In this document: positions 10,111-49,946 of the stretch, in pieces
How positions within the stretch are numbered: the first letter of the stretch is position 1
Layout of the letters: each line of letters starts with the position of its first letter
NCBI RefSeq assembly: GCF_000591055.1
Contig: NC_020388.1
Span: 2,418,001-2,482,000, forward strand
Length of the DNA: 64,000 nucleotides
Reading direction: 5' to 3'
Source of the DNA: Natronomonas moolapensis 8.8.11
GTDB lineage: Archaea > Halobacteriota > Halobacteria > Halobacteriales > Haloarculaceae
Translations under genes and position numbers: made by a program
Notes under the pieces: model-generated
The model's database searches: none
Seen by the model: only the letters and a program-made list of their open reading frames with translations
What the model was told of the DNA's origin: nothing

Positions 10111-11823
10111 TTATAAATGATATCGCTGTGCAAGTGCTATCTCCTCGGCCGGCTCACAGGTCACGTGCTCGCCGTCGATCGATACCTCGAATGTCTGGGC
10201 GTCGATGTCGATGTCGTCGGGGCAGTAATCGTTGTGGACCATGTCGGCTTTCCGCACCGACCGCGTCCCCCGGACTGGCCGAACCGGCGCGTCGAGGCCG
10301 TACTCGTCGCCGACGCCGCGCTCGTAGGCGGCCTCGCTGACGAACGACACCGACAACGCGTTCTTGGCTTTCCCCGCGGCTCCGGCCCGGGGGCGCATCT
10401 CGACGGGCTCGCACGTCATGAGCGAGCCGTTGGCCTCGCCCATCTGGCTGTACACCGGGAAGCCGCCCTTGATGACGTACTTCGGCTTGATGCCGAAGAA
10501 CTCCGGTTCCCACAGCACGATGTCGGCCATCTTACCGGGCTCGAGCGAGCCGACGTACTCGTCGATCCCCGCGACCGTCGCGGGGTTGATGGTGTACTTG
10601 GCAACGTAGCGCTCGATCCGGTGGTTGTCCGCGTCGGTCCCTTCGTCTTCGGGCAGGGGGCCGCGCTGTTTCTTCATCTTATCGGCGGTCTGCCAGGTCC
10701 TCGCGATGACCTCCGCCATCCGGCCCATCGCCTGCGAATCGGAGGTCATCATGCTGATCGCGCCCCGGTCGTGGAGGACGTCCTCGGCGGCGAGGGTCTC
10801 CGCGCGGATCCTCGACTCGGCGAAAGCGACGTCTTCGGGGACGTCGGGGTTGAGGTGGTGACAGACCATCACCATGTCGAGGTGTTCGTCGAAGGTGTTC
10901 TCCGTGTAGGGCATCGAAGGGTTCGTCGACGACGGCAGCATGTGCTCGTGGCCGACCAACTCGAGGACGTCGGGGGCGTGCCCGCCGCCCGCACCCTCGA
11001 TGTGGAAGGTGTGGATCGCCCGCCCGTCGATGGCGTCGAAAGTCTTCTCGACGAAGCCGGACTCGTTGAGCGTGTCGGTGTGGATACACACCTGGACGTC
11101 CGTCTCCTCGGCGACGTCGAGGGCAGTGTCGATCACCGCGGGCGTCGACCCCCAGTCCTCGTGGAGTTTGAGCCCGCACGCGCCCGCCTCGATCTGCTCG
11201 TAGAGGGGGTCGGGCTGGCTCGAGTTGCCCTTCCCGTAGAAGCCGACGTTCATCGGCCACTCCTCGGCGGCCTGCAGGAACCGCTTGACGTTCTCGGGAC
11301 CGGGCGTACAGGTCGTCGCGCCGCCGCCGTAGCCGCCACCGAACATGGTCGTGATGCCGCTCGCGAGGGCGTGCTCGAACAGCCCCGTGCTGTTGAAGTG
11401 GACGTGGATGTCGAGCCCGCCCGGTGTGGCGATGAGGCCGTCGGCGGGCACGGCGTCGGTGCTCGCCCCGACGACGAGGTCGTCGTCGACGCCGTCCATC
11501 GTGTCGGGGTTGCCGGCCTTGCCGACGCCGGCGATCCGGCCGTTCCGGACGCCGATGTCGCCCTTTTCGATCCCGAGGATCGGGTCGATCACGACGGCGT
11601 TCGAGAACACCCAATCGAGCGCGCCTTCGGCCTGCGTGACGCCCGACTGCATCCCCATGCCGTCGCGCATCGTCTTGCCGCCGCCGAAGACCGCCTCGTC
11701 GCCGTAGGTGGTGTGGTCGCGTTCGATCTCCGCCAACAGCTCGGTGTCGCCGAGCCGGAGGCGGTCGCCCTCGGTCGCACCGAAGAGGTCCGTGTACTCG
11801 CTGCGGGGGAGCTCCCGCGTCAT
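10111..11823 (-). CDS. ureC: Urease alpha (catalytic) subunit
   Basis: The catalytic subunit hydrolyses urea to ammonia and carbamate at a dinuclear nickel centre. The 570-residue protein keeps every expected ligand: HVH at 140-142, the carbamylated lysine K219 in [11 protein letters not shown]221, H248 in [12 protein letters not shown]274 in [14 protein letters not shown], the flap histidine H322 in [12 protein letters not shown], and D362. The start is the ATG complementary to 11821-11823, overlapping ureB by ATGA. It should be an active enzyme. Confidence 0.97.
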
Positions 11824-41691: not shown

Positions 41692-42648
41692 CTACGTCAG
41701 GACGTGGACGTAGCGGGTCAGGGAGGCGTGGACCCGACGGTCGAACCGATCCGCGACACTCCAGCCGGCCGCCTCGGCGGCGTCGCTCCAGACCCGATCG
41801 CCAACCAGCACCGCCCGCGGGGCGACCCGGCGGAGCTCCGAGAGCGTCCCGCCGACGAGCGCCGAAAGGGAGCCGCCCGCGACCTTCGATTGGCGGCCGT
41901 AGGGGGCGTCCAGCACCGCGCCGTCGACGCTGTCGTCGGCGAGGGGCAACCGGGTGGCGTCGCCGCGGAGGACCGATCCCTCCCCGAGGTAGGCCGCGAG
42001 GTTGCGTTCGGTCCCCCGGACCATCTTCGCCTGGGCGTCGACGCCGACGACGCTCGCGCCCGCGAGGCCGGCCTCGACGAGGATGCCGCCGGTGCCGCAC
42101 ATCGGGTCGAGGATCCGGGCTCCGGGCGCGGCACCGGCGATGTTCGCGAGCGCGCGGGCGTCCATCGGCGCCATGCTCCCCGGCTGGAAGAAGGGCTTTT
42201 TCGTCGGCTTCCGGGCGGCAAACTCCCGTTCGGGTTCGGTTTCGAGCCACCCGAGCGCCGCCAGCCCCGACGAGAACAGCGCCAGAAGGGTGTGATCGGG
42301 GGTCTCGAGGTCGACGTCGAAGCCCCGGTCGACGAGACGACTCCCGAGGCGGCGCTCTACGGCCTGGGTGTCAATCCCCGCGAGCCCCCGGACGTCGCGC
42401 GCCCTGACGGCGATCGAACCGGCCCGGTCGCGGCCGGCGGTTCGGGCGAGCGCGCTCGCCGCCTCGACGTCGGGAGCGCAGGTCCCGACCAGCCGGCAGA
42501 TCCGGCGGGTGTAGGCGAGGGCCTCGGGGGCCTCGACCCCGCGAGCGGTGGCGATCCCCGGCGCGACGAGGTCGACGGCCGAACAGCGGCTCTCGGCCTC
42601 CCGGACCGCGAAGGCGTCGTCCTCGCCGGCCAACTCCAGCAGGTACAC
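41692..42648 (-). CDS. trmG10: tRNA (guanine-10-N2)-dimethyltransferase
   Basis: The 318-residue protein combines an N-terminal THUMP-like RNA-binding part (about 45-155) with a C-terminal methylase. ARILDPMCGTGGILVEAGLAG near 198 is the SAM loop, VVGVDAQAKMVRGTERNL follows, and VLDAPYGRQS near 264 is the N-methyltransferase motif (DAPY for DPPY). This layout and length fit archaeal Trm-G10. Confidence 0.9.
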   Translation of the reverse strand: MYLLELAGEDDAFAVREAESRCSAVDLVAPGIATARGVEAPEALAYTRRICRLVGTCAPDVEAASALARTAGRDRAGSIAVRARDVRGLAGIDTQAVERRLGSRLVDRGFDVDLETPDHTLLALFSSGLAALGWLETEPEREFAARKPTKKPFFQPGSMAPMDARALANIAGAAPGARILDPMCGTGGILVEAGLAGASVVGVDAQAKMVRGTERNLAAYLGEGSVLRGDATRLPLADDSVDGAVLDAPYGRQSKVAGGSLSALVGGTLSELRRVAPRAVLVGDRVWSDAAEAAGWSVADRFDRRVHASLTRYVHVLT

Positions 42649-42707
42649 GCCCGGAGGTGGCCGCCCGCGGGAAATAAACGGCCCGATCGGGTCCGGTCGG
42701 GGTCGTC

Positions 42708-42784
42708 GGAGCGTCCAGTCAGATCAGCCGGAGCGTCCGGTCGGGTTCGCCGGAGCGTCCAGTCAGATCAGCCGGAGCGTCCGG
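42708..42784. repeat. 22-bp tandem repeat upstream of trmG10
   Basis: Units begin ggagcgtcc at 42708, 42730, 42752 and (partial) 42774. Units 1 and 3 are identical, while unit 2 differs in the second half (ggtcgggttcgcc for agtcagatcagcc), so the order may reflect a 44-bp higher unit. Confidence 0.88.
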
Positions 42785-42998
42785 GACCGATTCGACGCGG
42801 TATATATATGCACCGGAGCGGCCGCGACTGAGATATTTATAAATGAATGGCGTCGCTGATCGCATCCCCTCCCACGGTGCGGTGGCGCGCGCTCGGAGCC
42901 GTGGCCGAGCGGCGGGCGGCGAGCGACGCGAGCCGCCCCGCCCGAGGGCCGGCGCGAACCCACGTGCGAGGGCTTCGCGAACGGAGTGAGCGACGGCT

Positions 42999-43018
42999 CG
43001 ATAGAGCTCGCTCTATCG
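42999..43018. other. Perfect 9-bp stem hairpin
   Basis: cgatagagc and gctctatcg pair exactly around a tc loop. Its layout (9-bp stem, 2-base loop, core agagc/gctct) is the same as in the hairpins after aspS at 37208 and 37292, so they may be one dispersed family. Confidence 0.75.
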
Positions 43019-43190
43019 GCGGACGACCGGCGGGCCCCGAGACGAACGGAGTGAGTCGAAGGGTCGCCGGGAGTCGGTTGGGGAGGCGTGTGGCTGTCGG
43101 AGACGGCCGGAGGACCCACGATTCGACCGAGGGACGCACGAGCGCGGTCGGGGGTTTATAAATTCGATTTCGAGTAATTATAAAACAGGT

Positions 43191-43307
43191 TCCGTGGATA
43201 TATGAACCAGATCCGAGTTTATACCTCAACTCCGTTTTTATATCTCAGCTCCGTTTTTATAACCCAACTCTGTTTTTATATACTATGTACGGGTGTTTAT
43301 ATACCCG
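43191..43307. repeat. 19-bp-period array of TATA-box-like units
   Basis: Units start at 43212, 43231, 43250, 43269 and 43288, exactly 19 bases apart, with a looser unit at 43191. The consensus is tccgtttttatawcycaac; the TATA core is kept in every unit while the flanks drift. It lies in a sharply AT-rich island. The genes on both sides point away or lie hundreds of bases off, and the nearest downstream plus-strand gene is beyond 44.2 kb. Confidence 0.85.
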
Positions 43308-43490
43308 ATCGATCAAAAGAGGGGCGAACCCACGAAGACGACCCTCGGCGGCGAACCGCGGGACGGACCGTCCACCCGAGACGACGCGCTATAGTAACCA
43401 TCGCAAGCGATTACACATCGATCGCACTGCCATCGTGCGATCGAGTGTGCAGTGTCTTCCGATCGCTACTATACCCGACCGAGCCACGAC

Positions 43491-43631
43491 TCACCCGCGC
43501 TGGCGATCGTAGAGCGTGACGTAGTGGTCGCTGTATCGAGCCTCGTGTTCTTTCGCGCGCTCGTGGGCGGTCACGCAGTCGTCGAGCCGTCGCTCGAGGC
43601 CGCAGTCGTTGCACTCGATCTTGCATGGCAT
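43491..43631 (-). CDS. Small zinc-finger protein (46 aa)
   Basis: The protein MPCKIECNDCGLERRLDDCV has cysteines spaced C-x3-C-x2-C plus a fourth Cys, then a His-rich helix AHERAKEHEARYSDH, like a C2H2-type mini zinc finger. Small proteins of this sort are common in haloarchaea and often bind nucleic acid or partners. A TATA-like element on the minus strand (tttattatcg, complement of 43650-43660) lies about 25 bases upstream, so the message is probably leaderless. Confidence 0.7.
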   Translation of the reverse strand: MPCKIECNDCGLERRLDDCVTAHERAKEHEARYSDHYVTLYDRQRG

Positions 43632-46496: not shown

Positions 46497-49400
46497 ATGA
46501 CCGACGCCAGCGAGTCGATACGGGTGCTCCACGTCGACGACGAGCCGGGGTTCGCCGCCGTCGCCGCCGATTGCCTCCAGCGCGAGTCCGGGCGGCTGGC
46601 CGTCGAGACCGCAGAGGGGACCGACGAGGGAATCACGCACCTGCGCGATCACCGGGTCGACTGCATCGTCTCGGATTACGACATGCCCGGCGAGGACGGC
46701 ATCGAGTTCCTCGAGCGAGTCCGGGGGGTCGATCCCGATCTCCCGTTCGTTCTCTTTACCGGCAAGGGCAGCGAGGAGATCGCCAGCGACGCCATCTCGG
46801 CCGGGGTGACCGAGTACCTCCAGAAGGAGACCGGAACCGGCCAGTACGCCGTCCTCGCGAACCGGATCGAAAACGCCGTCGAGCAGTACCGAACGAAACA
46901 CGAGATCGAGGCCAGTCAAAAACGGCTCTCGCTTTTCATCGAGCAGTCGCCGCTCGGGGTGTTGGAGTACAACGAGGACTTCGAGATCGTCCGCCTGAAC
47001 GAGCGCGGCGAGGAGATCCTCGGCTACGCTGAGGCGGAACTCCAGGGGCACACGTGGCAAAAGCTCGTCACCGAGGACAGCCACGAGGACGTCGCGGCGA
47101 TCGCCGACGAGCTCGCCAACGCCGAAGGGGGGTATCACAGCGTCGACGAGAACGTCCGCAAGGACGGCGAAACGATCGTGTGTGAGTGGCACAACCGCGT
47201 CGTCACCGACGACGACGGCGAGGTCGTCGCGGTCTTCTCGCAGTTTCAGGACGTCACCGACCGCCGGAACCGCGAGGAACGGCTCCGGCGGACGACCGCC
47301 CGCCTCGAGGCGCTGTTCGAGAACTCCCCGGACGGGATCAACGTCCACGACGCCGAGGGGACGATCGTCGACGTGAACCCACAGCTGTGCGAGCAGACGG
47401 GCTACGGCGAGTCGGAGCTGGTCGGCATGAAGGTCTGGGACGTCGACGCGAGGGCCGACCCCGAGGGGGCCACCGGGGTCTGGGCGGGGATGTCAGTCGG
47501 CGACCGCCACGAGACCGAGACGCGATACCGCCGGGCCGACGGAACGACGTTCCCGGTCGAAGTGCACGTCAGACGGCTCAGCATCGACGGCGAGGAGCGC
47601 TTCGTCGCGATCAGCCGCGACATCACCGAGCGCCGGCAGCGCGAGGCCGAGCGCGAACGGGTCGAGACGAGTCGCCGGGAGATACACCGCATCACGGCGT
47701 CGGCCGACGTCGACGCCGACGCGAGGATCGAGCGGCTACTCGACGTCGGCCGTGACACCCTCGGCGTGGCGAACGCCCACGTCGCGGAGGTCGACTGCGA
47801 CGCGAACCGCCACGAGGTCACGGTGGCGTCGGGGTCGGGGCTTGCCGAGGCCGGAGCCGAGCGCGCGCTCTCGGAGACGTTCTGTGCGGCGACAGTCGAG
47901 ACCGAGGGCGTACTCGATGTCTCAGCGACGGAACTACCGGACGACAGCGACCACAGGAGTGGTCTCGAGCAGTGGGGGATCGGCTACTACGTCGGCGCGA
48001 AACTCGTCGTCGACGGCGAACTCTTCGGGACGGTGTGTTTCGTCGACCGCGACCCCCACGAGCGGTCGCTGACGGAGGACGAACGGGCGCTCGTCGAGCT
48101 CCTCGCCCAGTGTGTGAGCCACGTCATCGAGCGCGCGGCCGACCGCCGGGAGCGGGACGCGATCCTCGATCGGGTGACCGACGCGGTGGTGGCGGTCGAC
48201 GACGGGTGGTACGTTCAGTACGCCAACGAGCGCGGCTGGGCGTTCCTCCGGGGGGCCGGCGACGCGGGCGAGGAGGCCGGCGGCGGGGCGGAGCACGGCA
48301 ACGGGACCGGCGACGAGGTTCGTGGCGTCTGTCTCTGGGAGGCGCTGCCGGAAGCCGCCGGAACGGGCTTTCGGGCGGCGTGTCTCGACGCCATGTCCGA
48401 ACAGCGCCCGGCCTCGTTTCGGGGGTACTACCCGCCCAGGGAGCGCTGGCTCGACGTCCGGGCGTACCCCTCCGAGACGGGCGTATCGGTGTACATCCGA
48501 GACGAGACGACCGAGCGCCGACGCGAAGAGCAGATCGTCGAGCGCCAGCGGACCATCCGGGAGATTTACGAGGCGATCTCCGACGCCGACACACCGTTCG
48601 AACGGACGGTCGAGCATCTGATCGACATCGGCCGCCGCGTCGTCGGCACGGAGTACGGCTCGCTCTCGCGGGTCGAGGGCGAGGAGTACATTTTCGAGGT
48701 CGTCAGGGGTGGGAACGAGGACGGACACGAAGACGAGGACGGGAACGAGGACGGACACGAAGACGAGGACGGGAACGAGGACGGACACGAAGACGAGGAC
48801 GGGAACGAGGACGGACACGAAGACGAGGACGGGAACGGAGACGGACACGAAGACGAGGACGGGAACGAGGACGGGGACGGGGGCATAGAACCCGGCGGGG
48901 TCGTCGACCTCGGCGCGACGAACTGCGAGCGGACGGTTCGGAACCGACGCTCGGTCGTGTTGGCCGACATCGCCGCGGACGCGCCCGAACTCACCGACCG
49001 GGCCGGCTACACGGAGTGGGGCGTCTCCTGTTATATCGGGACGCCGGTCATCGTCGAGGACTCGGTGTACGGCACGTTCTGTTTTTACGACACCGAGCGG
49101 CGCGAGGAGCCGTTCTCGGAGTGGGAGGTCGCGGTCGTCGACCTGATGGGCAAGTGGATCGGGTACGAACTCCGCCGCCGGCGCACCGAGACCCGCCTCC
49201 GCCGACAGAACGAACGCCTCGAGGAGTTCGCGAGCGTCGTCAGCCACGACCTCCGGAACCCCCTGGGCGTGGCCGCGGGCAACCTCGAGTTGGCTCGCGA
49301 GGAGTGCAACAGCGACCGCCTCGACGCGGTCGGCGACGCGATCGACCGCATGGAGACGCTGATCGAGAACCTGCTCGCGCTCGCTCGGGAGGGCGAGGCG

Positions 49401-49946
49401 GTCTCCGAGCGCGAGCCCGTCGACCTCGCGGCAGCCGCGAGGCGACACTGGAAGCGCGTCGAGACGGCGGACGCGAGACTGGTCGTCGACGTCGACCGTC
49501 GGGTCGGGGCCGACCCGAGCCGACTGGCACAGCTCTTCGAGAACCTCTTTCGGAACGCGGTCGAGCACGGTGGCCCCGAGGTGACGGTCCGGATCGGCGA
49601 CCTCGACGGGGGGTTCTTCGTCGCCGACGACGGTCCCGGTGTCCCCGAGGCCGACCGCAAGCGCGTCTTCGAGGCGGGCTACTCCGACGCCGACGGGACC
49701 GGGTTCGGGCTGGCGATCGTCGAGAGGATCGTCGCCGCCCACGGCTGGGCGGTCAGCGTCGGCGTGTCCGAGACCGGCGGGGCGCGCTTCGAAATCACGG
49801 GGATCGACGAAGCCGTGACTGCGGACGGGGGCGCGGAGAGGGAGACCGACGCGGGCGCCGACGCGGAGGGGGGTTCGGACACGGAGCTGGATTCGAGCAG
49901 CGACGCGGGGGCGGACGACGACCCGAACGCCGGATCCACCCTGTGA
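46497..49946 (+). CDS. Hybrid sensor histidine kinase (REC-PAS-PAS-GAF-PAS-GAF-HisKA-HATPase)
   Basis: This 1149-residue cytoplasmic kinase starts with a receiver domain (phospho-acceptor D60 in VSDYDMPGEDG). PAS domains lie at about 140-265 and 280-395, a GAF at 395-555, a third PAS at 555-685 and a second GAF at 690-895. HisKA carries H917 in VVSHDLRNPLGV, and the ATPase has NLFRNAVEHGG near 1016, DDGPGVP at 1044-1050 and GTGFGLAIVERI near 1065. No membrane segment is seen, so it senses internal signals. The second GAF holds a repeat-made acidic insertion, and the C terminus is a 40-residue Asp/Glu/Gly tail. Confidence 0.9.
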   Translation: MTDASESIRVLHVDDEPGFAAVAADCLQRESGRLAVETAEGTDEGITHLRDHRVDCIVSDYDMPGEDGIEFLERVRGVDPDLPFVLFTGKGSEEIASDAISAGVTEYLQKETGTGQYAVLANRIENAVEQYRTKHEIEASQKRLSLFIEQSPLGVLEYNEDFEIVRLNERGEEILGYAEAELQGHTWQKLVTEDSHEDVAAIADELANAEGGYHSVDENVRKDGETIVCEWHNRVVTDDDGEVVAVFSQFQDVTDRRNREERLRRTTARLEALFENSPDGINVHDAEGTIVDVNPQLCEQTGYGESELVGMKVWDVDARADPEGATGVWAGMSVGDRHETETRYRRADGTTFPVEVHVRRLSIDGEERFVAISRDITERRQREAERERVETSRREIHRITASADVDADARIERLLDVGRDTLGVANAHVAEVDCDANRHEVTVASGSGLAEAGAERALSETFCAATVETEGVLDVSATELPDDSDHRSGLEQWGIGYYVGAKLVVDGELFGTVCFVDRDPHERSLTEDERALVELLAQCVSHVIERAADRRERDAILDRVTDAVVAVDDGWYVQYANERGWAFLRGAGDAGEEAGGGAEHGNGTGDEVRGVCLWEALPEAAGTGFRAACLDAMSEQRPASFRGYYPPRERWLDVRAYPSETGVSVYIRDETTERRREEQIVERQRTIREIYEAISDADTPFERTVEHLIDIGRRVVGTEYGSLSRVEGEEYIFEVVRGGNEDGHEDEDGNEDGHEDEDGNEDGHEDEDGNEDGHEDEDGNGDGHEDEDGNEDGDGGIEPGGVVDLGATNCERTVRNRRSVVLADIAADAPELTDRAGYTEWGVSCYIGTPVIVEDSVYGTFCFYDTERREEPFSEWEVAVVDLMGKWIGYELRRRRTETRLRRQNERLEEFASVVSHDLRNPLGVAAGNLELAREECNSDRLDAVGDAIDRMETLIENLLALAREGEAVSEREPVDLAAAARRHWKRVETADARLVVDVDRRVGADPSRLAQLFENLFRNAVEHGGPEVTVRIGDLDGGFFVADDGPGVPEADRKRVFEAGYSDADGTGFGLAIVERIVAAHGWAVSVGVSETGGARFEITGIDEAVTADGGAERETDAGADAEGGSDTELDSSSDAGADDDPNAGSTL
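48711..48875. repeat. 30-bp in-frame tandem repeat inside a GAF domain
   Basis: Five units (48711, 48741, 48771, 48801, 48831) and half a sixth each encode GNEDGHEDED, giving about 55 extra acidic residues from residue 739 on. They fall between the strands EYIFEVVRGG and GGVVDLGATNCERTV of the GAF fold, in what should be a surface loop. The units are almost identical, so the array is young or kept uniform by conversion. Confidence 0.93.

Follow-up and report, generated by a model that had tools for sequence, protein, structure and literature searches.

The Natronomonas moolapensis genome consists of a single contig of 2,912,573 bases, and the window that we analyzed is the 64,000 nucleotide stretch between bases 2,418,001 and 2,482,000. 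The GC content is 64% in a 464-kb sample, and the genome-wide statistics described herein are based on pattern searches together with this sample. Gene calls made in the present analysis placed an RNA methyltransferase gene (TIGR01177-like, with a UPF0020 domain) on the minus strand at window positions 41692..42648, followed by a gap containing an array of TATA cores, a second minus strand gene (43491..43631) and then a DUF2237 gene. The second gene encodes a 46-aa protein with paired CxxC-type cysteines that matched no family. The array sits past the 3′ end of the CxxC gene and about 0.5 kb from the start-codon end of the methyltransferase gene.

The gap surrounding the array is rich in repeats. 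A GC-rich tandem repeat with a 22/44-bp period occupies positions 42691-42784, and a GC-rich dispersed element (GGTGGCGCGCGCTCG ... GGGAGGCGTG) is found at 42877-43100. The latter has about five relatives in the N. moolapensis genome and one adjoining a TATA array in the congener G004; its copies often carry a TATA-like box approximately 20-40 bp ahead of their start and differ in the tandem repeats at their ends. This element might be a non-coding RNA or a mobile repeat. On the other side of the array is an 85-bp element (43387-43477) with inverted ends and a strong predicted hairpin (z = -5.5). One of its 24 genomic copies is the one that lies 84 bp from the array, and related sequences occur at unannotated sites on haloarchaeal plasmids. 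The element resembles the small mobile repeats (SMR-A) of Haloquadratum walsbyi (PMC3119063).

Inspection of the array (43157..43303, with no strand assigned) revealed eight TATA cores starting at 43157, 43179, 43199, 43220, 43239, 43258, 43277 and 43298. The successive spacings are 22, 20, 21, 19, 19, 19 and 21 bp (mean, 20.1 bp), and autocorrelation of the region peaked at lags of 19 and 38. Shuffling of either the array region or the whole intergenic gap with preservation of dinucleotides did not yield, in 5,000 trials, a single sequence with eight cores at 18-23 bp or with four cores at exactly 19 bp. Similarly, triple TATA sequences at exact 19-bp steps were observed twice in the 64-kb window, whereas the expected number was 0.00. 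From the core positions, the shuffles and the pattern count we conclude that the array is genuine and well beyond chance. A previous sequence-only reading of this DNA described five to six TATA boxes with an exact 19-bp period between 43191 and 43307. Six cores do lie within that interval, but the two additional cores upstream (43179 and 43157) bring the total to eight, and the exact period holds for the four middle cores while spacings elsewhere are 20-22 bp.

The middle of the array (43208..43281, plus strand), to which the exact 19-bp period is confined, consists of tandem copies of a 19-bp unit with the consensus TTTATAACTCAACTCCGTT. These copies were detected by Tandem Repeats Finder (43218-43280, period 19), as direct-repeat family D2, and by flank identity, which was 67-89% between neighboring middle units. 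Thus the head-to-tail copying that characterizes a minisatellite was seen in four of the eight units, which are tandem copies of one another, and was absent from the other four, whose spacers differ. The earlier proposal that the array is a scar of slippage gains support for the middle units, which were made by slippage or a similar duplication process. Constant cores with drifting flanks had also been proposed. Between duplicated neighbors the TTTATA cores differed at 0 of 18 positions and the flanks at 13 of 39 (Fisher p = 0.005, a value inflated by the fact that the array had been chosen for its cores), whereas the outer units do not contain the middle spacer at all.

Relatives of N. moolapensis, including Natronomonas sp. 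CBA1123, were retrieved by means of the methyltransferase gene. The distance between the methyltransferase and DUF2237 genes is about 0.2 kb in the closest syntenic relative (G019), compared with 1.1 kb in N. moolapensis, and this shorter gap contains neither an array nor a CxxC gene. The array is absent from the matching locus of every relative examined, and none of them has a TATA cluster at its methyltransferase, DUF2237 or CxxC-gene locus.

A genome-wide search placed the window array in a larger class, of which it is the longest example detected. Pairs of TTTATA sequences occurred 54 times in the N. moolapensis genome, as compared with 9 occurrences of the reversed pattern, and 37 times versus 9 in G004; no excess over the control was apparent in seven other congeners. 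Triples of TTTATA were concentrated in the N. moolapensis genome when 79 relatives were searched. As plain TATA triples lacking the wider core were barely more frequent than the ATAT control (107 versus 90), the signal resides in TTTATA. The second-longest array (genome positions 1241217-1241361) is flanked by the eIF1A gene on one side and a zinc-finger gene on the other; further sets are located at 1256126, 1384162, 1674471, 1997848 and 1094080. Some sets are simple tandem repeats; the one at 1176869 has a 33-bp unit and the one at 2645129 a 32-bp unit. No conserved array was found beside eIF1A in the best five matching relatives, and conservation at orthologous places was not found among the relatives examined. 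A wider and nearly palindromic motif, RTTTATAWAC, was derived separately from the N. moolapensis genome and from G004, and C was found at position -1 in 0 of 105 class cores. Two cores of the window array match this motif exactly, one on the minus strand (ATTTATAAAC, 43154..43163) and one on the plus strand (GTTTATATAC, 43295..43304), while the majority are imperfect matches.

A central feature of the class is the distance between its cores. When loci with GC-rich spacers were considered in N. moolapensis, 22 of 25 independent loci had spacings of 19-23 or 30-34 bp, which correspond to two or three helical turns, and coherence at 10.5 bp was significant under an assumption of uniform spacing (p = 4e-5). 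These spacing windows were drawn on the N. moolapensis genome and tested on one other genome only, that of G004, in which 13 of 16 loci fell inside them (p = 2e-4). We also compared the flanks of both cores within each pair as a check for duplication. Neither side gave a duplication signal in 31 of 60 pairs, and the spacing of 29 of these 31 was within the windows. In an unbiased sample all seven TTTATA pairs, which include units of the window array, had such spacings, compared with 26% of random hexamer pairs. Because phased spacing persisted with unrelated spacers, duplication alone is not a sufficient explanation. The spacings of the middle units of the array are themselves duplicates and hence do not constitute independent evidence of phasing; moreover, the agreement of three 19-bp steps in a row with 10.5 bp per turn is only a loose one. 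These data identify a class of TATA-like sites whose spacing is held to whole helical turns while the spacer sequences are free to vary. The sequence-only reading had also suggested selection on the cores, and constraint is indeed plausible given that TTTATA pairs with unrelated spacers stand two or three turns apart in two genomes.

Whole-turn spacing with free spacers is usually caused by several protein copies bound to one face of the DNA. Since such phasing commonly has this origin, as in the operators of Ss-LrpB, a putative protein can be proposed by analogy for the sites described here. Our preferred model, in which we place about half of our confidence, is that the window array and the class are same-face binding sites for a putative cooperative DNA-binding protein, and that the sites were extended at this locus by tandem duplication. 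The DNA would be bent or wrapped by several copies of a single protein lined up along one helical face, and the longer array would have arisen when a 19-bp unit was locally duplicated in tandem beside cores about two turns apart. We infer protein binding, its cooperativity and its effect from the phasing of the sites. Candidate binding proteins include TBP itself, and a caveat to the model is that RTTTATAWAC overlaps an ordinary TATA box.

The operators of Ss-LrpB, an Lrp family protein of Sulfolobus solfataricus, contain regularly spaced palindromic sites that each bind one protein dimer, including a pair with a 20-bp centre-to-centre distance, and the DNA is wrapped through cooperative binding (PMC4046817). 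The class resembles these operators in that several regularly spaced palindromic sites are present in archaeal DNA, and the near-palindromic RTTTATAWAC at two or three turns agrees with the Lrp-type arrangement, in which a palindromic site recurs along the same face of the helix. In contrast, the 15-bp Ss-LrpB motif (TTGCAAAATTTGCAA) is unrelated to RTTTATAWAC, and we do not claim Lrp family membership because the Lrp consensus (PMC4046817) differs from the class motif. The best-known Ss-LrpB sites are also found at a few promoters, whereas the N. moolapensis sites are spread across intergenic regions of all kinds. A more specific version of our model, which we offer with distinctly less confidence, is that N. 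moolapensis and G004 have a putative undescribed DNA-binding protein, possibly architectural and TBP-like, that would occupy RTTTATAWAC sites two or three turns apart and thereby shape the DNA between genes, including convergent ones.

The main competing explanation is that the array is a neutral minisatellite, a functionless AT-rich stretch copied repeatedly by replication slippage or recombination within an intergenic region that is rich in repeats and has expanded recently. The middle units, as near-identical head-to-tail copies like those of an ordinary intergenic minisatellite, are well accounted for in this way, and the 22/44-bp and dispersed repeats in the same gap, the relatives without an array and the TTTATA sets that are plain tandem repeats are consistent with it. 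However, this explanation accounts poorly for the class. The outer units and most phased loci have a common core and spacing but not a common spacer, half of the TTTATA pairs are without a duplication signal and yet almost all of these have two- or three-turn spacing, and slippage provides no cause for either the whole-turn preference or the sparing of the cores. For these reasons we consider a purely neutral origin unlikely, although it is the strongest of the alternatives.

A haloarchaeal promoter contains a TATA element (TTWT) about 26-30 bp ahead of the start. An A-rich BRE (CGAAA) is located immediately upstream of this element (PMC4983044). If TBP and TFB bound each core as a TATA box, the array would give several transcription starts or titrate these factors. 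As would be predicted for promoter elements, the frequency of TTTATA in the N. moolapensis genome peaks about 30 bp ahead of start codons, and three middle units scored 9.1-10.3, at about the 90th percentile of genes, with a promoter matrix that was built here and is dominated by the AT core. In addition, a repeat with several TATA boxes drives transcription in halovirus HF2 (PMC8707807). However, A was present at positions -5 to -3 in 43-56% of gene promoters as opposed to 7-21% of class cores, and hence the class cores are without the haloarchaeal BRE. The phased pairs had no preferred orientation toward the gene that they might serve (18 aligned with the next gene and 20 opposed), only 3 of the 18 aligned pairs stood 27-30 bp from that gene, and 11 of 38 loci lay between convergent genes, a modest excess over the 16% of gaps that are convergent. 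At the window locus itself, rightward transcripts would be antisense into the CxxC gene, and leftward transcripts would begin 0.5 kb from the methyltransferase gene, the only gene that the array could serve. The absence of a BRE, the lack of an orientation preference and the frequent convergent placement make a stack of promoters improbable, and the multi-start transcription envisaged in the earlier reading is not favored.

We consider it very unlikely that small mobile elements, of which the neighboring 85-bp element is an example, left the array behind as a remnant or use it as a target. The proximity of that element and its behavior in G019, where one element end is repeated in two places, are consistent with such an origin, but the 18-bp unit in G019 (TTGCGATGGCTACTATAG) and the 19-bp unit in the window differ in sequence, the array occurs at one genomic location, other matches being limited to single cores, and for most phased pairs no neighboring copy of the element was found. 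The single location also led us to reject the possibility that the array is a copy of a dispersed element. The amplification in G019, in which head-to-tail copies of one end of the 85-bp element follow each other every 18 bp (L220 867-977 and L221 777-851), constitutes a second type of TATA-containing array.

Slightly less probable still is a cluster of terminators in which T-rich cores downstream of genes halt RNA polymerase. The moderate over-representation of convergent gaps is in its favor, but the array would be A-rich as read from the CxxC gene, its RNA folded no better than shuffled sequences (z = -0.8), and termination has no use for helical phasing. A conserved RNA was rejected on the basis of this folding result and because no Rfam family was found at the array, and a tRNA promoter region was rejected because the window has no tRNA. 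A viral origin was rejected because phage records contained no similar DNA; viral contigs with motif pairs were uninformative, as they came overwhelmingly from AT-rich genomes (top GC content, 57%).

TATA-bearing repeats are already known in haloarchaeal DNA. Promoters T-17064 and T-17022 of halovirus HF2 are embedded in regularly spaced TATA-containing repeats (PMC8707807), and thus the previous statement that the array has no described counterpart was too strong. Both systems have regularly spaced direct repeats with several TATA boxes; however, the HF2 repeats are 12 bp long and spaced by 14-15 bp (1.5 turns), as opposed to 19-22 bp in the window array. The HF2 repeats are viral and conserved in related viruses, and their transcription starts have been mapped (PMC8707807), whereas the window array is chromosomal and not conserved and its class is without BRE-like flanks. 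In a limited literature search, no published account was found of chromosomal TATA-like sites forming a class with spacings of two and three turns. Occupancy of these sites would provide a sequence handle on a new haloarchaeal regulator or architectural protein, and would make it testable whether TATA-like sites distant from gene starts organize DNA rather than initiate transcription. It would also imply that TATA-box prediction in such genomes picks up many sites that are not promoters.

Two further features of the window were observed. A long ORF resembling a sensor kinase (46497-49946) contains a 30-bp tandem repeat (48711-48874) that encodes an acidic repeat of the GNEDGHEDED type. In addition, the Rfam 5′ ureB sRNA family matched positions 11372-11669 with 42.1 bits, relative to a cut-off of 40, and in a haloarchaeon this match is probably a ureB-like coding sequence rather than an RNA.
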